NCBI RefSeq assembly: GCF_000613285.1
Contig: NZ_BAIN01000007.1
Location: forward strand, 1-64,000
Reading direction: 5' to 3'
DNA length: 64,000 nt
DNA from: Acetobacter papayae JCM 25143
Lineage (GTDB): Bacteria > Pseudomonadota > Alphaproteobacteria > Acetobacterales > Acetobacteraceae
The notes under the pieces are model-generated. The model was given only the letters and a program-made list of their open reading frames with translations. It searched no databases and had not been told where the DNA came from. Within the stretch, counting starts at the first letter, position 1; each line of letters starts with the position of its first letter. The position numbers were made by a program, and so were the translations under genes. Positions 3,443-60,310 of the stretch are shown piece after piece.

Positions 3443-3801
3443 ACGGGGAATAGGTGCCACCAATGCGCTCCGAAAATGGAATTACTTTTTGGTTGGGCCG
3501 TGTACATGTCTTGTGTTCACAGCCTGACATATTTCCGGAATGAGGCAATATACGCGCAGCCACCTGCGTAGAGGGCAGGGCGAGGGATAACGACAAAAAC
3601 CTCTTTTTGGCAGGATAGGACGTGGTTGCGTGTGGAACTTGGTGCACAGTTAACATGCCGGGCTGTAGTAACGATCAATACGCTCTGAACCTGATAAGAA
3701 CAGTTCGGTTCAGTATAGTATGGGTAATTTTTTGTCGTATTGTGTGGCTTTCCTAGTGGTCTATTTGGATTGTTGATCCAACTTATTTTCTAGGATTGAC
3801 C
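3443..3801. other. Noncoding gap with promoter of the old yellow enzyme gene
   Basis: About 360 bases without a credible gene. The last 100 bases are AT-rich and precede the old yellow enzyme start, with AGGA about 6 bases before its ATG. It presumably contains the HxlR-controlled promoter; I cannot point to a specific operator. Confidence 0.4.
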
Positions 3802-4878
3802 ATGACCAAACTCTTCGACCCGATCGTCATTCGAGGTGTCGAGTTCCGCAATCGTATCGCGATGTCCCCGATGTGCATGCACTCGGGCACGCTGGATGGA
3901 AAGGTGACCACCTTTCACCATGTCCACTACGGTGCCCGCGCGCTTGGCGGTGCCGGCCTCGTGTTCCTCGAGACGACGGCCGTGATGCCCAACGGCCTGA
4001 TAGGTCCCGGCGATATCGGCATCTGGAACGACGGTCAGATCGAGGGACTCAAGGCGCTGACCGATACGATCCATGCGATGGGTGCCAAGGCTGGGTGTCA
4101 GATTGGCCATGCAGGCCGTCAGTTTCCGATCGAGACCCTGCCTTCGATTGCCCCTTCGGCAATTCCATTCACAACGGAATCGCGTGTGCCGGAAGCGCTC
4201 ACCGTTGAGGGTATCGATAAAGTGGTCGAAGCTTTCCGCACAGCCGCGATCCGCGCCAAGGCCGCCAACTTCGACGTGCTCGAGATCCATACCGCACATG
4301 GTTATCTGCTTAACGAGTTCCTCTCACCGATCGCGAACCACCGTACTGACGAATATGGTGGTAGCCACGAGAACCGCTACCGTATCGTCCGCCGAGTGAT
4401 CGATGTCATCCGGGCCGAATGGAAAGGCCCACTCTTCCTACGCATCTCGTCTACCGATTATGTCGAGGGCGGCAACCGACCAGAGGATTTTTTGATTTTC
4501 GGCAAGTGGATGAAGGAGCAGGGCATCGATCTTATAGATTGCTCGTCGGGCGGCATGGCGATGATCAAGGTCGAATCCTACCCCAACTATCAGGTGCCGG
4601 CCGCGGAACTTATCCGCCGTGAGGTTGGCATCATGACCGGAGCAGTCGGCCTGATCGAAACGGGGCGGCAGGCCGATGAGATCATCCGCAACGGCCGTGC
4701 GGACATCGTGTTGGTCGGCCGTGAGATGCTCAAGGATCCGTTCTGGGCACGAACCGCCGCTGACGATCTGCAAACACCAATCCCGGTCCCGGCCCAATAT
4801 ACCCGCTACGGCTCGGCCTGGCAGCGCAGCCAGCCGGCGCTGCCAATGGCAGCATTAACCGATACGGTAGTTGGATAA
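3802..4878 (+). CDS. Old yellow enzyme family NAD(P)H:flavin oxidoreductase, YqjM/NamA-like
   Basis: FMN-dependent ene-reductase with a TIM barrel (358 aa), reducing activated C=C bonds or quinones with NAD(P)H. YqjM-class residues are visible: the cysteine of SPMCMHS near residue 24, QIGHAGRQ, the substrate-binding pair in EIHTAHGYLLNEFLSP, the FMN-contacting arginine of LRISSTD, and VLVGREMLKDPFW near the C-terminus. The ATG at 3802 is preceded by AGGA at good spacing; a TTG six bases earlier is in frame and less likely. It is transcribed alone behind the HxlR regulator and ends against a convergent terminator. Redox-responsive control by HxlR is inferred from position. Confidence 0.92.
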   Translation: MTKLFDPIVIRGVEFRNRIAMSPMCMHSGTLDGKVTTFHHVHYGARALGGAGLVFLETTAVMPNGLIGPGDIGIWNDGQIEGLKALTDTIHAMGAKAGCQIGHAGRQFPIETLPSIAPSAIPFTTESRVPEALTVEGIDKVVEAFRTAAIRAKAANFDVLEIHTAHGYLLNEFLSPIANHRTDEYGGSHENRYRIVRRVIDVIRAEWKGPLFLRISSTDYVEGGNRPEDFLIFGKWMKEQGIDLIDCSSGGMAMIKVESYPNYQVPAAELIRREVGIMTGAVGLIETGRQADEIIRNGRADIVLVGREMLKDPFWARTAADDLQTPIPVPAQYTRYGSAWQRSQPALPMAALTDTVVG

Positions 4879-48894: not shown

Positions 48895-50313
48895 TTATTT
48901 ACGGAATGTCCGCAAAAGCCAGAAACACCCAAGTGCGATGATAATGGCTCCCCCGGCCATGCCGATACGGCTTAAAACGAGTAGTGGCGATTTTGAGCCA
49001 CCCTGACGGATCGTGGCGACTTGTGCTGGTGATACAGAAACCTGAGGCCTGCCATATGTATCAAAAACATATTTTGTAAGTTTGGATATTTCCTCATCAT
49101 TTAACTGCACGGCATCTGTTTTCTTTCCTCCAAAGCCGGGCATGAATGCTTGGGCACCTGCAACATGACGGTCGACACCAAAAAGAATGGTCGCAATCAG
49201 ATTGTCCGGGTTGGAGGCGCCTGTAACGGAGTTGTGCCATAATGACGGATAATATCCGTCGCGACTACCCTGCGCCTTGTAATTATGGCAAGATGCACAA
49301 TTTCCCATAAACAGTTCAGCACCAGAAATATCGGGATTATCTTCCGACCGAATGGGCTGATCGCCTCTGACACGGTCTGCGCTGGAAACCGACTGCCCAA
49401 GAGCGAAGCGTGAAAGATTTCCATCAGCAGGGTCACGCACTGGCTGTGTTGACGCAAGGTACGTGGCCAGAGCGTTCAGGTCTGCCTCTGTCAGATGTTG
49501 GAAACTGTGTTCGACGGCTTCTCCCATACCACCCGCGGCCTGTGCCAGACCGTCTATATGGCCTGATTTCAGGTAGGTCTTGATTTCATCCTGCGACCAG
49601 TTTCCTATGCCACTGATTTTGTCCGAGGTGATATTGGGAGCGTACCACGAACCAAGGCTCCCCCCGCCAAGGGCCTTGGAGGCTTCTTCCTGCATCAGAA
49701 AGCCACGGGGCGTATGGCAGGTTCCGCAATGCGCCGGGCCCTGTGCGAGATAGGCCCCTCTATTCCACTCTGCCGAGTGTGATGGGTCAGGCTGGTAGGT
49801 TGTGTTGTTACGAAACAGTATATTCCAGAACATCATTGAGCTGCGGATGTTCATTGGAAAAGGGAGAGCTGTTTTTGGCGGAGCGCTCTCGACCGGCTGA
49901 ACGGATTTCATGAAATACAGGTACAGGTCATGTATGTCCTGATCTGTCATGTAAGAATATGCTGTATAAGGCATTGCAGGGTAGAGATTGCTTCCATCCT
50001 TGCGGATGCCTTTGCGGACAGCACGAGAGAAATCCGCTTCGCTATACTCTCCGATACCATATGTTTTGGATGGCGTGATGTTGGTTGAGTACATCGTGCC
50101 CAGCGGTGTTTTCATGGCCAGACCGCCGGCAAACGGTTTGCCGCCCGGCGTGGTATGGCAGGCGACACAGTCTGATGTGACCGCTATATAGGCACCCGGA
50201 TCTGTATTGCTGGCATCTTCGGCTGATGCGGCGCTGCACAGGAGTATCGGCCCCGCCAGAGCAGCAAGGAATGAGAGCCTGAAGGCCTGTCTGGTTTGTG
50301 TCACTCTAAGCAT
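48895..50313 (-). CDS. Triple-heme cytochrome c subunit of an FAD sugar/polyol dehydrogenase
   Basis: Membrane-bound cytochrome (472 aa). A signal peptide (LSFLAALAGPILLCSAASAE) is followed by heme motifs CVACH (residues 49-53), CGTCH (about 197) and CASCH (about 338), and a C-terminal membrane anchor (GMAGGAIIIALGCFWLL). This is the standard third subunit of gluconate, 2-ketogluconate, sorbitol and fructose dehydrogenase complexes, passing electrons to ubiquinone. Its start overlaps the GMC subunit stop by 8 bases. Complex order small-large-cytochrome favours the gluconate/ketogluconate/sorbitol types over fructose dehydrogenase. Confidence 0.92.
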   Translation of the reverse strand: MLRVTQTRQAFRLSFLAALAGPILLCSAASAEDASNTDPGAYIAVTSDCVACHTTPGGKPFAGGLAMKTPLGTMYSTNITPSKTYGIGEYSEADFSRAVRKGIRKDGSNLYPAMPYTAYSYMTDQDIHDLYLYFMKSVQPVESAPPKTALPFPMNIRSSMMFWNILFRNNTTYQPDPSHSAEWNRGAYLAQGPAHCGTCHTPRGFLMQEEASKALGGGSLGSWYAPNITSDKISGIGNWSQDEIKTYLKSGHIDGLAQAAGGMGEAVEHSFQHLTEADLNALATYLASTQPVRDPADGNLSRFALGQSVSSADRVRGDQPIRSEDNPDISGAELFMGNCASCHNYKAQGSRDGYYPSLWHNSVTGASNPDNLIATILFGVDRHVAGAQAFMPGFGGKKTDAVQLNDEEISKLTKYVFDTYGRPQVSVSPAQVATIRQGGSKSPLLVLSRIGMAGGAIIIALGCFWLLRTFRK

Positions 50314-51945
50314 GGTTCAGTTGCCCGACGATTGCATCCGCAGCTTTAAGCGCCAATGCGGCCATAGTGATTGTGCTGTTCCCGCTGCCGCCGGTCGTCA
50401 TTGCGGCACCACCAGGCAGGAAAAGATTGTCATGGTCATGGGCCCGGCAATCTGCATCCACGACTGAATCGCTTGGATCATTGCCCATGATCGTGCCACC
50501 CATGATATGATCGCTGTGCAAGAATTCAGGTGAAATCTTGATGTCTGTCGCGCCGAGTGCAGTTGCCAGTTTTTTAAGAAGGGGAACGGTATAGTTTTCA
50601 GCGCTTCTCCGTACATAGTCGCCTACATCGTAATAGATGCGAGGACGGTTGAGGCCGAGCCAATCCTTTTTGTCTGACAGGGTCAGACGGTTGAAGGGGA
50701 GCGGGAGAGGTTCGTGCTCAACGGTCAGGCGGGCTGTGCAGGCTGATAAACGACGGATTTCCTGATCGAGGGCTTTTCCGTAAAGACCTTTTTCGAGAGC
50801 CGCTAAACCTCCGAGTGTGCTTCGCGCCATGTTTTCCATACGGAACATGCGCCGGCGTACTCCCGCCGGAAATCACCCTGACTTGTGTTCATGATACTGC
50901 TGCTCTGAACGGGGCCTACGCCGGTCCAGAGTGGTTCAGACATTTCAATGTCCGCGATCAGCTTTGGCTGATCCATCATGTTGCGGCCGACCTGATCTGA
51001 ACTATTGGCGACACCACGAGGGTTTTTGTCATCAGCGGATAAAAGGAGGAGCTTGGGCGTTTCTATGCCATTGCACGCCAGCACAAAGATTTTGCCTGAA
51101 ACGGAATGTGAGGTTCTGTTCGGGTCGTAGTAGTGGACGGCCTCGACCTTCTTCTGGGCATTTGTTTCAACGCGATAGGCGACAGCATTCGTGATGATCC
51201 TGCCGCCTTTTGCCTCGATGCGGGGCAAGGCGGTTGCGGCATCGTATTTTGCAGCGATCGGGCAGACTGGAAAGCAGTTATTGTTTCCGCAGCAGGGGGG
51301 GCGTCCATCAAATGAAACGCCACTGTTGCGTGCTTGTGGGGCGGGAAGGTTCTGCATGCCAAGGGTTGCGGCAACATCGGTCAGCCGCTGCTCGCCCGGA
51401 CCAAAGGGAATGGGCCCCATCGGTAGGGGCGAGACCGCGCGGTGCGCGGCGGCCATTGCAGGGCTGGGTCGCCGGGGCCGCAGACACCCATCGCATGCTC
51501 TGCCCGTGCATAGTAGGCTCAAGCACATCATAGCTAAAGGCCCAGTCACGGCCTACGCCATAGAGGCTTTTAAGCCGCAGGTCATCGGGTGTCATACGCC
51601 AGCAGATACCAGCCAGTGCCAGGTGGCACCGCCAGCGTAACGCACGTAACCCTGCTCGTAGGCTTTGGCATTTGGCCCGGTCAGGTCAAGATACGATGCG
51701 GCCTCAGTCGGGGTCCGTGTTTCAAGGTGCGGTGCCCACGGCTTGGGGGGATACGGGGCGTTCCAGTGGTTGCGCAGTGTGGGGGGGAGGTTGCGGTAGT
51801 TTTCAACGATGGTATCGCGACTGACACGGGGGCCTGCCTCGAGCATGAGTACGGAAAGCCCGGCATCAAGGGCCTGTTCTGCGATCAGGCAGCCGACGAC
51901 GCCAGTACCAACAATGACGACATCGCTGTTGAGAGTGGAGGGCAT
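50306..51945 (-). pseudogene. GMC flavoprotein large subunit of the dehydrogenase (four frameshifts)
   Basis: FAD-binding catalytic subunit, about 547 aa restored. Segments in order: DVVIVGTGVVGCLIAEQALD (FAD), GYVRYAGGATWHW, YYARAEHAMGVCGPGDPALQ, PMGPIPFGPGEQRL, CCGNNNCFPVCPIAAKYDA (cysteine-rich region typical of this dehydrogenase group), LACNGIETPKLLLLS, HSDHIMGGTIMGNDPSDSVV with the catalytic histidine, and GGSGNSTITMAAL. Breaks lie near 51605, 51520, 51425 and 50850; each equals one missing base. Start at 51945 follows GGAG by about 9 bases. Exact sugar or polyol substrate cannot be told. Confidence 0.87.
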
Positions 51946-51965
51946 GAACAATTCTCCAGAGAAGT

Positions 51966-52502
51966 TCAGAACGAAGGCATGTTCAGGAGGGGAACGGCAG
52001 TCGCATTCCATGCATTGGGTGCTGACTTCGCGTAGGAGGGGATTGTCATGACATCGTTGGTGACTTTGAACATGAGTGCCTCTTCAAAGGCGACAACACG
52101 ATCACCCGATTTGCCGTGCACTACGCCTGAATACCAGGCTGATATTATTTTGAGGGCTGAGTTTTTTAGTGCCGCATCAGTCAGTGCCGGCATGAGATGT
52201 TCAACATCAACAGCCGCATTTTTCATGATGAAATCCTGAAGTGCTGTGACTGTATTGTCAAAACCCTCTTCGGAATCACTGAGTGCGTTGTAGATTTTAT
52301 GACCGACAAAGGGATCCAGTTCGTGTGGAACAAGAAGTTTCGAGACGAGCATGAATTGCACTATGCTGTCAGGCTCATGTATGTGTCCGTTTGATGCGGC
52401 AAGGCCCGGAGACTGTGTAAAGCTGGCGACAGTGGCGAGCGCACTCATGCCAAGCAGCAGGCCTCGTCTGTTTATTTTGAATTCTTTATGGAAGGATGTC
52501 AT
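51966..52502 (-). CDS. Tat-exported small subunit of the FAD dehydrogenase
   Basis: Small subunit (178 aa, gluconate 2-dehydrogenase subunit 3 / sorbitol dehydrogenase small-subunit family). Starts with a twin-arginine signal, INRRGLLLGMSALATVASF. The mature part has LVSKLLVPHELDPFVGHKIYNAL and ISAWYSGVVHGKSGDRVVAFEEALMF, characteristic of the family. The signal drags the folded GMC subunit to the periplasm. First gene of the three-gene operon, 20 bases before the GMC gene; divergent from the sensor kinase across an AT-rich gap. Confidence 0.9.
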   Translation of the reverse strand: MTSFHKEFKINRRGLLLGMSALATVASFTQSPGLAASNGHIHEPDSIVQFMLVSKLLVPHELDPFVGHKIYNALSDSEEGFDNTVTALQDFIMKNAAVDVEHLMPALTDAALKNSALKIISAWYSGVVHGKSGDRVVAFEEALMFKVTNDVMTIPSYAKSAPNAWNATAVPLLNMPSF

Positions 52503-55191: not shown

Positions 55192-56600
55192 TCAGGCCGC
55201 GCGCGGACGGCGTTTCTGCCCACGGTAAGGCATATTGCCTGCCATGATGCAGCCGAAAGGATCAATATAGTCCTCGATCTCGGCCAGCCCATACTCGCCA
55301 ATCTGCGCCACAACGGCATCGGCCCGCTTGTAGCTTGAAGGCAGTTCCGAGCTATCGACCTCGCCCCCATAGAAGCGGATGTCCAGCCCCTGTATTTCAG
55401 CAGCAAGCTGAGCTTCAGGCGTGATAGTACCCATGCGGCGGCGATGCTCGGTCCGCGTGAAGTTGCGGCCCGCTCCGTGGGGCGCAAAGCCCAGCGCATG
55501 CGCGGCATCCTTCCCGCGGGCAATCAGCACTGGTTCCGCCATGTTAAGGGGGATGATCACCTTGCCGCTGGCATCATCGGCGTAGCTACCCCAGGCCGGT
55601 GTAGCACCCTTGCGTGGTAGAACAAGCCATCACGCTCGAACACGAAGTTATGCTCATTCCAGAAGCGATCCACCACGCTAGCCTGCACGGCGGTGCTGAT
55701 GGCATGGTGCAGAGCGGTGTGGTTGGCCTTTGCCCATCTGCGCGTGAGCTGCAAGGCCTCCCAATAGGCGCGGCCATCCTCGGTGTCTGCCGGAATCCAG
55801 GCATTCTGCGGTAGCGTGGCGGGGGACAGCTGGCGTCTGTAACGCTCGGCCACTTTCATGCCGCCCTTATACAAATGTCCGCCCGGCCCGCGTGAACCAT
55901 GATGCGTGACCATGACCGTGCGGCCGGTGCTGCGCGAGCGACCTACGAACAGGAAGTGGTTTCCATCACCCTGTGTGCCCATATGCGTCTGTGCTGCCCT
56001 GACAACATTGTCCTGTCGGAGGAAGGGGTTGGCACGAAACGCATCAAGCAGGCCATCCGGCAGAGGGAAGTTGCTACTATCCATGCGGCCGCCAGGGCCG
56101 AAATGCGTTATGGCCGAAGCCGCATCCAGCACCGCCTTTGGGTCAACGGCCCCAAGATCGGTCATCATGACGGAACAGCAGATGTCAGCCGAGTGCATTC
56201 CCGGATGGATGGCATTGCGCGCGGCAACAATACCGCCCACAGGAATGGTGCCTAACGGCCCGGAAGGGCAGGCGTCAGGCATGACGGCCCCAGATTCCAC
56301 CGTAGGCGTGCGCAGCACTTCACGCATCGTGGCCAGCACCTTGTTCAGGTTGGTGGTTTCATCCTCATTTTCCGCACGGATCGATACATGCAGCGGCACG
56401 GCAGCCTCTTCCTGCAAGGGCAGGTGCGGGGGCGGCTGGTCCTGTATAAGAGTGGCACGGATATGCGCGAGATCCATGCCGCTTGCATGGGCGGCATTGG
56501 CTCGGGCCAGCATGTCCGCGAAGGCAGGTCCGGGGCTGTGCCCCCACTCAATCAGGTGAGCGCCGGTTATCTTGGTGCCAATGTCGTCAATCGTAGTCAT
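55192..56600 (-). pseudogene. rtcB: RNA-splicing ligase RtcB (one frameshift)
   Basis: GTP- and Mn-dependent ligase joining 2',3'-cyclic phosphate or 3'-phosphate RNA ends to 5'-OH ends (about 469 aa restored). Landmarks: IHPGMHSADICCSVMMTDLG (metal cysteine), THMGTQGDGNHFLFVG, VTHHGSRGPGGHLYKGG, and near the end LGFAPHGAGRNFTRTEH, which carries the guanylated histidine. The frame is lost near 55605 after LFYHA and resumes as KGATPAWGSYADDASGKV; one base is missing. It lies downstream of rsr and three Y-RNA-like hairpins on the same strand, divergent from rtcR, as in the rsr-yrl-rtcBA locus of Salmonella. No rtcA follows. Confidence 0.92.
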
Positions 56601-56697
56601 GTCTATAATCTTTCGAAGCCGTGAGCGCGGGGCTCCAACGGCACATCAACTGAATGACCCGGGAACCGGCCTGCGCGGTTTCTGTCGGCAGGCCACA

Positions 56698-56760
56698 CCA
56701 TGGAGACAAGGAATGTGCCGGACTTCATTTACAGTGTAGTCCGGCACGCATTCCCCAGTG
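56698..56760 (-). ncRNA. Y-RNA-like stem-loop, unit 3
   Basis: On the minus strand a long hairpin: GTGCCGGACT pairs perfectly with AGTCCGGCAC around a loop beginning ACACTGTAAATGA, and an outer GGGGA pairs with TCTCC. Between the two helices sit AATGC on one side and ATTCCTTG on the other. The 5' GGGGAATG and 3' ATTCCTTGTCTCC match the Ro-binding pattern of units 1 and 2 (5' GGCGAATG; 3' CTTGTCGCC), as does the internal GGACTACA. It is the simplest unit, without a tRNA-like part. Confidence 0.65.
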
Positions 56761-56772
56761 TCCCGGGTCGTG

Positions 56773-56868
56773 AAAAAAGGTTCTGGCGACAAGGGGGCGA
56801 GGGGACATGGAAGGGCTCCCGTAGGAGTTGGCTTCGTGACTGTAGTCCCCCCAGCATTCGCCAGAGTT
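56773..56868 (-). ncRNA. Y-RNA-like RNA, unit 2, with poly-U end
   Basis: Minus strand: TCTGGCGA (plus 56858-56865) pairs perfectly with TCGCCAGA (56782-56789). Inside, GGGGGGAC faces GTCCCC, and the 3' strand carries CCCCCTTG before TCGCC, the bulged Ro-binding signature. The loop side begins GGACTACAGTCACG. Six T residues follow shortly after the closing stem (plus 56773-56778), giving an intrinsic-terminator-like 3' end. Same architecture as units 1 and 3. Confidence 0.7.
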
Positions 56869-56879
56869 GAGTTATGGGT

Positions 56880-57002
56880 CCGGCGACAAGAATGGCGGGA
56901 CATTTTTTGTGACTAAGCTACCCGCATGATGCGGAGCGGGGATTGAACCCGCGCCTGCGGTTTCCCGCCGCTCTACCTGTAGTCCCACCGACATTCGCCG
57001 GG
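56880..57002 (-). ncRNA. YrlA-like Y RNA with tRNA-like module, unit 1
   Basis: Minus strand, beginning 6 bases after the rsr stop. The outer stem CCGGCGA (57001-56995) pairs with TCGCCGG (56886-56880); next to it 5' AATG faces 3' CATTCTTG, the bulged helix bound by Ro proteins. The internal part mimics a tRNA: GGTAGAGC as in a D arm, a short GCGG/CCGC arm, and a perfect T arm, GCGGG-TTCAATC-CCCGC, with the consensus T loop. A hairpin CCGCA/TGCGG follows. This matches YrlA RNAs described beside bacterial rsr genes. Transcribed with rsr and rtcB, probably under RtcR control. Confidence 0.75.
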
Positions 57003-57007
57003 TGTAT

Positions 57008-58562
57008 TCAAAAGGGCTGGGCCATGATCTGCCCGACCCAGTGCGAAGCTTCCATCTGCCCCGATGCAAAGGTGGCCATCTGCTCAAAGGCTGCATCAGA
57101 AAAGCCACCGATATTCAAGACATCATCCCGTTCGGCAGCCTGCGCCGTGCCGTAGCTGGATGTCGATACAGACGAGACGCGCTGCCGGATTGCGGACTTT
57201 CAGCCTCGTCCATTCGAACATCATGCCCGAGGGTCTTCCTTTGTTCTGTGCGTTGCCCCAGGACTGGTTGTCCGAGACAAACACAACAAGATCCGCCGTC
57301 TCATGCCGGGCATTGAGCCAGGCCAGTGGCGCTGCGCAATCCGTACCGCCGCCGCCCAACTCCGCAAGGTGGCGGGCGTTGGTCAGGATTGTATCGCGCG
57401 GCTCCAGGGCAATATCCCGCACTTGCATCTCGAAGGGCAGGATAAGGGCCGCAGGATTGCTGCGTTTGAGTGCCGCCGCCACAAGGGCAGCAACATCAAT
57501 GCACCTTACGGCCGTGGTGGCGCTGCCTCTGTATCCCGTTACCGGCGAGTGCATGGAGCCTGAAACATCAGGGCACACCACCACGCGACCTTCAAGGCGG
57601 GGCACATTGTCCACCGCACGCTCCATCGCGTCGTGCAGGGCGTCACGCAGGGCCGGAGGGGCTGCCGGGTCCAGCGCCTGCAAGGTTGCAAGCAACTGGT
57701 AGGGCAGGGCCTTGGCTACCTTTATGCGCTCCCGGTCCCGCAGCACGGTGGCGACATGTGTCACAACCTCAGGTCTGCTAAACGCATGGTTACGCGTCAG
57801 CATATTCAGTCCCTGCCGCAGGGTCTGCCACGAAGCCATGAGTGCGACCTCCCCCCACTGCTCCGGCGAAAGCGTCATATCGCTCAACAACTGGAACGGC
57901 ACGGCCGGAACCTGTTTCGACACGCCGGAACGGAAGGCCAACAGGTCCTGCACGAGGGCGGGCAGAGCCGACACGTCGACAGGCCGGTCGATCAGCCAGG
58001 CATAAAAGGCCTCACGCTGCGCAGAGCCGGGGTGTGGATGCACCATGCGGATCACGTCAGCCAGTGAGGGATCATTCCCGACCGACGCAGCAAGCAACTG
58101 CGCATCGGAGGCTTTGTTCAACCAGTCCTGCACCATGGCCTTTGGGCGAGATCCCAGTGATTTGCGGCCCGTCTGGCCCGAGCGCATGATCTGCACGAAA
58201 GTCCGCAGAACCCGCCCAGATGTCACCACCTTTGGGAATGCACGGGCAAATAGCACCGGGTCACGCCCAGACAGGACTGCTAGCAGCAGGGCAGGCGCGT
58301 CTTTCATATGCCCCTTGTCCCGTGCATGGATTGCCGTGCAAGCAAGGAAATCCGGGGAGACCGTGTTAGCCAGTTCGATCAGTTCGCGCACCTGCGTCTG
58401 TGCATCCGTGTAGTAACCGCCGCCAAAAGTGCCGGTCATGGCAAGCTGAGCCAGCTTGTGGGCCGGTGCGAGGTCATAGGCGGCGGCACCCGCCGCGTTA
58501 CGGATATCGGTCTGCGGTGCGAACCGCCCCCGCTGAGACGCAAACACTGATCGGTTTGCCAT
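57008..58562 (-). pseudogene. rsr: Ro60 homologue Rsr (TROVE and vWA domains; one frameshift near the 3' end)
   Basis: Ring-shaped RNA-binding protein that binds Y RNAs, about 517 aa restored. The N-terminal TROVE domain of helical repeats covers about residues 1-300 (FGGGYYTDAQTQVRELIELA, ARDKGHMKDAPALLLAVLSG). The C-terminal von Willebrand A domain has the MIDAS start VVVCPDVSGSMHSPVTG near residue 330 and GGGGTDCAAPLAWL. The frame is lost near 57155, within IDIQ, and continues as YGTAQAAERDDVLNIGGFSD to a TGA at 57008. Start at 58562 (MANRSVFA) follows AAAGGAAA. Known Ro60 orthologues work with Y RNA and PNPase in RNA decay and with RtcB in RNA repair. Confidence 0.92.
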
Positions 58563-58671
58563 GGTCTTGTTTCCTTTCTTCGACACCCCTTTTTTGTGCC
58601 GGATACGAAGACAAAGAAAAACAAAAACAAAAAATTTCCGGAACCCATTGTTTTAAAAATGGAATATTCAA

Positions 58672-58738: not shown

Positions 58739-60310
58739 ATGCGTAATGTTGTGATTGGCTTTCTTGGTGCGACCCTTGATCAGGGTCGTCGTCGCTCCTG
58801 GCGTCCTTCGGTGCAGATCTGTGCCCAGCCCAATTTTCCGATTGATCGGCTGGAGCTGCTGCATGATCGGCGGCACCTGTTGCTGGCTGAAAAGGTGGCG
58901 CGTGATATTGTGGCCCTGTCTCCCCAGACGGAAGTGCTGCTGGTGGACATGGAACTCGACAATCCATGGGATTTTCAGGAAGTTTATGGAAAGCTATACG
59001 ATTTTGCGGAATCGTATGGTTTTGACGAGGATCGGGAACATTATTACGTTCACCTGACAACCGGCACGCATGTTGCCCAGATATGCTGGTTTCTCCTGAC
59101 GGAAAGCCGCCATATCCCGGCCAGCCTGCTCCAGAGCGGACCACCGCGAGGTGAGGCCTCGCCCAATGGTACGATCGACGTCATTGATCTTGATCTTTCG
59201 CGCTATAATGCCCTGCAGCGCCGCTTCGAGGCAGAGGCGCGCGAGCATTCCCATATGCTGCGCGGCGGCATCCCGACCCGTAATGCTGCGTTCCATGGCC
59301 TGATAGAACGGCTGGAGCAGGTCGTGACACGCTCGGATGAGCCGGTCCTGCTGGTGGGTGAGGCGGGCGTTGGCAAGAGCACGCTTGCGCAACGGATCTA
59401 TGAGCTGAAACTTCAGCGCCGCCGGGTGAAGGGCCGTCTGGTGCATGTCAACTGTAGCGGCTTGCAGGGGGCGCACGCCATGGCAGCGCTGTTTGGCCAG
59501 CGGCGCAATGTTGTGGGGCTGGCCGGCACCGAGCGCGCGGGCTTCCTCAGTGAAGCAGAAGGCGGAGTGCTGTTCCTTGATGACATTGATTTATTGCCAC
59601 ACCCGGAGCAGGCGCTGCTGCTCGATGCTCTGGAGAGTGGCCGTTACTACCCCGTGGGGTCTGATACCGCGCAGAGCTGCCGCTTTCAGCTCATAGCCGC
59701 AAGCAGCCGAGACTTGTCGACGTTGGGGCAGCAGGGTCTCATGCGGCCTGATCTGCTTGCCCGGCTGGCGATATGGGTTTTTCACCTTCCCCCGCTGCGT
59801 GATCGGCGTGAAGATATGGAAGCTGAACTCACCTATGAGCTGGAAGAAGCCGAGCGGCGTTTGGGGAGCAAGATCGGCTTCAACGTGGATGCAAGGACGC
59901 GCTACCTGCATTTTGCCAAGGACCCGGCCATGAAGTGGCTTGGCAATTATCGCGATCTGTCTGCTTCAGCCCGTAGGTTATGTACGCTTGCCGAGCGCGG
60001 ACGCATCACTCTACCCATGGTGGAGACGGAAATCGGAACACTGACCCGCCAATGGGCTGCAACCCAGCGTGACGGAGACCTTGCGTTGCTGGCGGAAATA
60101 CTGCCTGACCCCGCAGGCATGGATGAGTTTGACCGGGCGCAGTTGGCGGCTGTGGTGCGGGCCTGTCGGGAGGCGTCCTCCCTGTCTGCCGCAGGACGGC
60201 GACTGTTTGCCTTCTCTCGGCAGGAAAAAGTCAGTCAGAATGATGCCGACCGCCTGCGCAAATATCTCGCGCGCTTTGGCCTGAACTGGGAGAGGGTTGC
60301 CGGAGGGTGA
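58739..60310 (+). CDS. rtcR: RtcR regulator (CARF plus AAA+ domain) with non-canonical GAFTGA region
   Basis: Transcription activator of RNA repair genes (523 aa). The N-terminal CARF-type sensor (VVIGFLGATLDQGRRRSWRP, YYVHLTTGTHVAQICWFLLT) spans about 1-180. The AAA+ domain has Walker A in LLVGEAGVGKSTLAQRIYEL (about 206-213) and Walker B VLFLDDIDLLP. Where bacterial enhancer-binding proteins carry GAFTGA, which contacts sigma-54, this protein reads NVVGLA (residues 257-262). The C-terminal part is the RtcR-specific GNYRDLSASARRL region. The ATG at 58739 sits just after AAGGAA. Divergent from rsr. Ligands of RtcR are RNA fragments or cyclic-phosphate ends in other bacteria. Confidence 0.9.
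   Translation: MRNVVIGFLGATLDQGRRRSWRPSVQICAQPNFPIDRLELLHDRRHLLLAEKVARDIVALSPQTEVLLVDMELDNPWDFQEVYGKLYDFAESYGFDEDREHYYVHLTTGTHVAQICWFLLTESRHIPASLLQSGPPRGEASPNGTIDVIDLDLSRYNALQRRFEAEAREHSHMLRGGIPTRNAAFHGLIERLEQVVTRSDEPVLLVGEAGVGKSTLAQRIYELKLQRRRVKGRLVHVNCSGLQGAHAMAALFGQRRNVVGLAGTERAGFLSEAEGGVLFLDDIDLLPHPEQALLLDALESGRYYPVGSDTAQSCRFQLIAASSRDLSTLGQQGLMRPDLLARLAIWVFHLPPLRDRREDMEAELTYELEEAERRLGSKIGFNVDARTRYLHFAKDPAMKWLGNYRDLSASARRLCTLAERGRITLPMVETEIGTLTRQWAATQRDGDLALLAEILPDPAGMDEFDRAQLAAVVRACREASSLSAAGRRLFAFSRQEKVSQNDADRLRKYLARFGLNWERVAGG

Follow-up and report, generated by a model that had tools for sequence, protein, structure and literature searches.

The gap between rsr and rtcB in the window (the whole 64,000-nucleotide stretch of DNA analysed here) probably encodes three Y RNAs of an Rsr particle, the largest of which, unit 1, is a predicted Rsr-bound adaptor built on a tRNA body opened in its D loop. 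The positions and stems of these RNAs, their covariation, the tRNA hallmarks and the D-loop permutation are demonstrated at the level of sequence. Y RNAs beside rsr, two of them in each Salmonella locus, and a tRNA mimic opened at the anticodon are already known, and the first survey of bacterial Y RNAs (Chen et al., 2014) reportedly found at least one Y RNA per species with a tRNA-like domain. No D-loop-opened Y RNA is described in the literature searched, outside which the 2014 survey falls.

The genes that flank the gap are those of an RNA repair locus. The Ro60 homologue rsr (57011-58586) and the RNA ligase gene rtcB (55198-56600) lie on the minus strand and carry one frameshift each, near 57156-57187 and near 55608, respectively; the gap boundary near 57007 holds only if the frameshift in rsr is allowed. 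On the plus strand, rtcR (58742-60310), which encodes a sigma-54-type activator with an RtcR-family sensor domain, adjoins rsr and is divergent from it and from the unit containing rtcB, as is the layout in operons for RtcR-controlled RNA repair. Its product matches the Pfam RtcR family (E 2e-74) and scores 631 bits against NF038308, slightly below the cut-off of 650. The divergent Rsr encoded in the window gives no match to the Pfam TROVE domain; it is nevertheless taken to be a Ro60 protein because of a match to the Pfam Ro60 vWA domain (E 2.8e-14) and because of profile and fold matches to structures in the Protein Data Bank. Deinococcus Rsr (2nvo, E 6.5e-27) and animal Ro60 (1yvp, E 3.8e-20) are both hit, along almost the entire length, by a profile built on 31 relatives, and the 13 best Foldseek matches of the structure predicted for the A. 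garciniae relative (31 sequences, mean pLDDT 79.4, pTM 0.71) are all Ro60, Rsr or TROVE entries.

In Salmonella, the rsr-yrlBA-rtcBA operon similarly unites rtcR, rsr, Y RNAs and rtcB in one locus. That operon is described with two Y RNAs and rtcA (PMC7790460, PMC9879122), whereas the window has three Y RNAs, and the RtcA family has no match in the genome to which the window belongs (177 contigs, 87% complete). The Salmonella RtcR reacts to cleaved tRNA (PMC7790460). The three Y RNAs of the window probably share a transcript with rsr and rtcB that RtcR controls, and the operon would then be active when tRNAs are broken. A scan for sigma-54 sites gave no clear site in the window (best score 12, attained by 288 of 1400 shuffled sequences); across loci, a score of at least 14 was reached in 4 of 70, compared with 11 of 1400 shuffles.

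The earlier note had placed three same-strand units in the gap, and inspection of the sequence finds them there, on the minus strand: unit 1 (56880-57001, 122 nt, with the D-loop-opened tRNA module), unit 2 (56783-56864, 82 nt, without a tRNA module) and unit 3 (56700-56758, 59 nt, a minimal stem-loop). The closing stems it had read, CCGGCGA/TCGCCGG, TCTGGCGA/TCGCCAGA and GGGGA/TCTCC, are all present, as are GGNGAATG, GGACTACA and CTTGTCNCC, which are common to the three units. The closing stems contain the conserved internal loop of Y RNAs (5' GGNGAAUG, 3' CUUGUCNCC), and the units are encoded beside the Ro60/Rsr gene. Their reading as Y RNAs is further supported by matches to the YrlA family model RF02553 and to two covariance models, R1 for RNAs of the unit 1 type (10 training sequences) and R2 for short Y RNAs (37 training sequences). 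Unit 1 scores 109 bits with R1, and units 2 and 3 score 55.3 and 48.8 bits with R2, each being part of the respective training set. The covariance search with the bacterial Y RNA model that the note had recommended does align RF02553 end to end with units 1, 2 and 3, at 38.7 bits (E 8e-7), 25.2 bits (E 0.007) and 22.3 bits (E 0.04), all below the gathering cut-off of 69 bits. Across the 3.04-Mb draft genome, R2 has exactly three matches, the three units (E ≤ 1; 150 of 501 first-look candidates scored). Units 1, 2 and 3 fold with z-scores of -3.0, -2.4 and -3.7, and 0, 5 and 0 of 200 shuffles fold equally well, while the remaining 95 bases of the gap, beside rtcB, give a z-score of -1.1, with 31 of 200 shuffles as good. 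Matches to mir-455, Plastid-ycf2 and Histone3 in the Rfam scan were below cut-off and were taken as chance.

The evidence for units 2 and 3 consists of the R2 matches, similar RNAs in relatives and folding, covariation having been counted for the unit 1 type only. Unit 2 carries an inner hairpin, CTCC-TACG-GGAG, with a UNCG-type loop. Similar RNAs occur in A. garciniae, in two Komagataeibacter and in the genome G147, where the hairpin recurs in altered form (the A. garciniae loop is TATG). The likely orthologue of unit 3 is the A. garciniae RNA at L011:5797-5851 (R2 31.3 bits).

Unit 1 has a far more elaborate interior. Read from its 5' end, it opens with an outer, Rsr-type stem (CCGGCGA at 56995-57001, paired with TCGCCGG at 56880-56886) and a second stem (GGTGGGAC at 56982-56989, paired with GTCCCGCC at 56894-56901), followed by ACTACA and then by GGTA-GAGC (56970-56977), which a host-tRNA profile aligns with tRNA positions 18-25, the 3' half of the D loop and the 3' strand of the D stem. 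After a single G comes an anticodon-stem hairpin, GCGG-GAAA-CCGC (56957-56968), capped by a GNRA tetraloop instead of an anticodon loop, then AGGC as the variable loop and the T arm GCGGG-TTCAATC-CCCGC (56936-56952), which had been noticed earlier and is confirmed by the sequence and the RF02553 alignment. The two tRNA ends are joined in an acceptor-stem hairpin, TCCGCA-TCA-TGCGGG (56921-56935), with no free CCA. The chain continues with U8 at 56920 and with tRNA positions 9-16 (56912-56919), namely A9 (which with U8 forms TA), the D-stem 5' strand GCTT and AGT (positions 14, 15 and 16), in which G15 faces C48, before it returns into the Y stem. Taken in this order, the elements make up an entire tRNA that is circularly permuted, with the opening in the D loop. 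With its GAAA cap and closed acceptor end it lacks the features of a functional tRNA, and ARAGORN finds no tRNA gene in the window. The same host-tRNA profile detects a tRNA-like module in unit 1 and in neither unit 2 nor unit 3, in agreement with the earlier note.

The module had been described as being built as in YrlA, which turns out to be a different permutation. YrlA of the Salmonella type (RF02553; crystal structure 6CU1, itself recognised as a circular permutation of tRNA, PMC11472068) has in common with the window an Rsr-type stem (GGCGAAUG / CUUGUCGCC), a second stem, a circularly permuted tRNA module and a location beside rsr and rtcB. However, YrlA is opened at the anticodon stem, and RF02553 runs from T arm to acceptor hairpin to a complete D arm, with the Y stem replacing the anticodon arm, whereas unit 1 keeps a capped anticodon hairpin and has its break at 17/18. 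The end-to-end alignment of unit 1 with RF02553 at 38.7 bits is what could be expected if unit 1 were an ordinary anticodon-opened YrlA that has drifted. This explanation is highly improbable: besides the different order of modules, the D-stem strand GCTT of unit 1 is not followed downstream by GAGC, its partner being found upstream of the anticodon hairpin, and further members of the D-loop-opened class, showing covariation, are found in Asaia and Rhodobacterales. Furthermore, Rfam at its gathering threshold gives no match in 10 sources and, in 15 others, 18 YrlA and 20 tRNA matches, all of them outside the D-loop-opened RNAs; the 18 YrlA matches miss all six RNAs in those sources that score at least 89 bits with R1.

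The permutation was also located with a sequence profile made from 31 distinct tRNAs of the same genome, against which the interiors of Y RNAs were circularised in silico and their break points determined. Circularised unit 1 matches tRNA positions 4-69 with a break at 17/18 and scores 21.5 bits, compared with 7.0 for its best shuffled copy; its linear form scores 19.8 bits, so the gain from circularising is small. Among 216 long units (interior of at least 50 bases), 117 match across the junction, with the break in the anticodon region in 104, in the D loop in 12 and elsewhere in one, the last being a genuine tRNA that had been picked up in error. Of 2160 shuffles that preserve dinucleotides, none passes. 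Made up mainly of class I tRNAs, the profile has limited sensitivity: 99 of the 216 units failed, including 5 of the 17 class I D-loop-opened RNAs of these sources. No gain of the circular over the linear form was seen in 6 of the 16 class I D-loop-opened RNAs scored, and one of this class, L017:5839, falls below its best shuffle. By a strict count, D-loop-opened and anticodon-opened RNAs occur together in 8 sources, and only the D-loop-opened type is found in the window, both Asaia and L006. When the real tRNA is left out, a CCA persists at the former tRNA 3' end in 24 of the 104 anticodon-opened mimics (L021:6272, L047:5913, L037:5034 and others) and in 0 of the 12 D-loop-opened ones; its retention hints at a descent from true tRNAs.

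The class I D-loop-opened RNAs number 19, unit 1 and 18 others. In the 74 sources, 16 RNAs score 89 bits or more with R1, ten of them in its training set and six not, and the scores then drop to 62 bits. At 62 bits there are a D-loop-opened RNA of Asaia siamensis (L016) and the anticodon-opened L017:6107, which is not of this type and is included in the alignments A4 and A7 and in their pair counts. Two further D-loop-opened RNAs lie between rsr and rtcB in Rhodobacteraceae genomes. The compensatory changes that the earlier note had asked for in relatives are seen for the unit 1 type. In A3, a MAFFT alignment of 10 sequences made without fitting to the structure, two-sided changes are seen in 14 of 34 pairs, compared with 6.5 in shuffles (0 of 500 as high) and 1-5 in slid structures; the count of further pair types is less clear, being reached by 9 of 500 shuffles. 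When the alignment is fitted (A7, with 19 class I RNAs, two of class II and one anticodon-opened, 22 distinct rows in all), such changes occur in 30 of 34 pairs, and again none of 500 shuffles is as high. The Y stems contribute a part of this covariation (outer stem, 6 of 7 pairs in A7 and 0 of 7 in A3; second stem, 8 of 8 in A7 and 6 of 8 in A3), and the anticodon, T and acceptor stems covary as well. The D stem does so little, because it is nearly invariant. The Levitt pair 15-48, compared by eye, consists of G15 and C48 in all 14 of the class I RNAs that have G15, and none of the five with U15 has C48; since their sequences are related, the 19 RNAs do not represent 19 independent events. 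With the mistaken tRNA left out, the anticodon-opened units have 93 G15-C48 pairs, 8 A15-U48 pairs and 3 others. The A. garciniae counterpart of unit 1 (L011:5588-5676) keeps the anticodon-like hairpin and the T arm; its acceptor hairpin is missing, as is the 5' strand of the D stem.

A second set of RNAs, class II forms from Rhodobacterales, resembles leucine tRNAs with the opening in the D loop, as judged from conservation and folding. Seven were aligned (L032, L038, L039, L040, L046, L058 and L070:6721) and two more were found (L128:804 and L131); mimic positions are L032:6184, L038:6226, L058:6244, L070:6721, L128:804 and L131:1501. They carry GGNANACGC ... GGTGGCGGA, where the host tRNA-Leu has TGGCGGAATGGTAGACGC, plus a long variable arm in those inspected. 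Four class II RNAs were folded: those of L038, L039 and L070 form a junction closed by the D stem with anticodon, variable, T and acceptor hairpins, and for that of L046 the minimum-energy and centroid structures disagree. In the profile test, none of the six scored gains by circularising and two fall below their best shuffle.

Y RNAs are known as modular adaptors, of which bacteria make several, some of them mimics of tRNA. In the predicted adaptor, the handle for Rsr would be formed by the outer stem and the conserved internal loop within it, and the far end would present an entire tRNA body lacking the decoding end, the chain entering and leaving through the D loop. Such a body would be expected to fold into an L shape held on Rsr. 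This second permutation keeps the T arm, the D stem, the acceptor stem and the 15-48 pair and avoids a decoding loop and a free acceptor end; unit 1 should thus be uncleavable at an anticodon loop and unchargeable. It may attract tRNA-binding enzymes or compete with tRNAs for them, candidate targets being tRNA-modifying enzymes, anticodon nucleases and, through Rsr, PNPase, and, when tRNAs are damaged, could serve as a bait, a decoy or a tether. DusA and TruB modify YrlA (PMC8394870). For units 2 and 3, a simpler role as tethers, gates or plain ligands of Rsr is proposed, and this would fit a division of labour between units with and without the tRNA mimic, as the earlier note had suggested. 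The Y RNA of Deinococcus (RYPER), likewise that of an Rsr protein, tethers Rsr to PNPase (PMC7790460, PMC4726728). The Deinococcus precedent would suit a mimic whose sole task is to dock PNPase or some other nuclease to Rsr and which resembles a tRNA for the sake of folding alone; this we consider unlikely, as the conserved U8, A14, G15-C48, G18, A21 and T loop in both permutations seem to go beyond such a generic need.

The three-member array had been singled out as unusual, and relatives prove to have larger ones. Searched at E ≤ 0.05, the 74 sources contain 291 matches to R2 and another 38 places added by R1, one of these 38 being a tRNA (the R1 match L027:6305, a real tRNA-Asn, was removed from the Y RNA count). 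This leaves 328 Y RNA candidates in 73 of the 74 sources (none in L007), with a median of 5 and a maximum of 8; L004 and L011, which score identically and are probably the same species, are both counted. The Y RNA 5' motif, in some cases as a variant, stands at the start of 36 of the 37 candidates that R1 but not R2 identifies, L023:6455 being the exception. The A. garciniae locus has three candidates, the two Asaia loci have three and four, and the two Komagataeibacter loci (L012 and L013) have one each in the DNA searched, without a tRNA module, so that the tRNA mimic appears dispensable in the family. The "loss" of the mimic that had been proposed for units 2 and 3 is not demonstrated, because such arrays regularly include short units that lack a tRNA module.

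Few genomes match, and the island is therefore sporadic. With R1, under stricter filters that lose weak matches, matches were found in 6 of 385 alphaproteobacterial and 7 of 397 Acetobacteraceae genomes (E ≤ 1e-5) and in 5 of 394 Rhodobacteraceae genomes (E ≤ 1e-11); scores typical of D-loop-opened RNAs (at least 89 bits) were reached in 2, 2 and 4 genomes, respectively. R1 is unspecific at low scores: the matches in two of the seven Acetobacteraceae genomes, at 42 bits, are ordinary tRNA-Asp genes, to which R2 gives no match. The Rsr of the window has a match in just 8 of 195 genomes, and within its genus only in its own genome and in G003. This sporadic presence and the frameshifts in rsr and rtcB are what a dead remnant in a decayed locus would display. 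Since each of the two genes has one frameshift, this copy of the locus may be decaying or mis-assembled. The frameshifts are likely assembly errors, as a GMC oxidoreductase gene in the window (50306-52011) is split into three ORFs too, which in an assembly as fragmented and incomplete as this one suggests sequencing errors; full stems are kept in all three RNAs, and a dead remnant is accordingly improbable.

Many of the arrays in relatives also contain genuine tRNA genes, 47 in total in 31 of 69 loci, mainly of Rhodobacterales: 18 for Asn, 12 for Lys, 9 for Gln, 7 for Pro and one without a clear identity. They sit downstream of rsr and, where the contig extends that far (which it does not in L019 and L037), before rtcB. 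They are interleaved with Y RNAs, for example at L021:6410-6763, L030:6000-6338 and L070:6003-6700 and in 28 other loci. Excluded from this count were ARAGORN calls of an Asn tRNA inside rsr (L025) and of Met (L051 and L057), Gly (L066) and Cys (L074) tRNAs. In Roseovarius albus and Octadecabacter algicola, the two genomes in which second copies were compared (30 of 39 and 30 of 38 tRNA loci read), for every operon tRNA there is another tRNA with the same amino acid, making the former a second copy, and the identities between the two are 74% for Lys, 80% for Asn, 72 and 69% for Pro, 71% for Gln and 91% for a further Asn, that of Octadecabacter. In the literature searched, outside which key papers fall, neither arrays this large nor tRNA genes within them are described.

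These tRNA genes raise a broader possibility, which we hold as tentative: the whole array may be a response cassette against anticodon nucleases, in which the Y RNAs would be uncleavable decoys and the divergent tRNAs of relatives replacements. The reading extends the explanation preferred here, an Rsr-bound adaptor, and is compatible with it. The narrow range of identities (46 of the 47 genes are for Lys, Asn, Gln or Pro) and the second copies in the two genomes point in this direction, and YrlA has been suggested to act as a competitor against a nuclease (PMC7790460). A parallel exists in the Anabaena trn operon (TrcR regulon), whose stress-induced spare tRNAs are co-regulated with rtcB, the tRNA operon and rtcB being repressed jointly (PMC10272220); there, however, the two are at separate loci and no RtcR homologue is identified, and the term Y RNA is absent from the text of the paper. 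Against a response cassette, tRNA genes are missing from the window, from L011-L016 and from 38 of the 69 loci as a whole, and the evidence for second copies comes from two genomes only. In its widest form, which is conceivable and to be taken with the same caution, the rsr-rtcB islands of Alphaproteobacteria would be anticodon-nuclease response cassettes with RtcR as sensor, RtcB for repair, Rsr with up to 8 Y RNAs and, often, divergent spare Lys, Asn, Gln or Pro tRNAs; the Y RNAs would display uncleavable tRNA mimics without an anticodon in two permutations (class I and Leu-like class II). The D-loop-opened mimic of the window would be one of these two formats, and among the Acetobacteraceae loci examined no other format is complete. 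The spare tRNAs of narrow identities make a link to tRNA damage directly testable and, if the arrays work as proposed, RNA repair operons would also replace and decoy, beyond religation.

Several arrays have peculiarities of their own. A conserved Y RNA module of about 150 nt in Rhodobacterales (L030:6099, L054:6178, L062:6206 and similar) contains a T-loop-like GGTTCRACTCC and, in L054, a GCGCCCAGACGGCAAACGC part; the tRNA profile gives no explanation for it. A 46-nt candidate in Paracoccus (L018:6085-6130, R1 23.8 bits) is nearly the Rsr handle alone. In L074, the Y RNA candidates (3633-3838) lie upstream, not downstream, of rsr. Three other alphaproteobacterial loci (L082, L083 and L084, from the genomes G307, G255 and G457) have one to four candidates, and five loci of Nannocystis (Myxococcota; L071-L073, L075 and L077) have 5 to 7.
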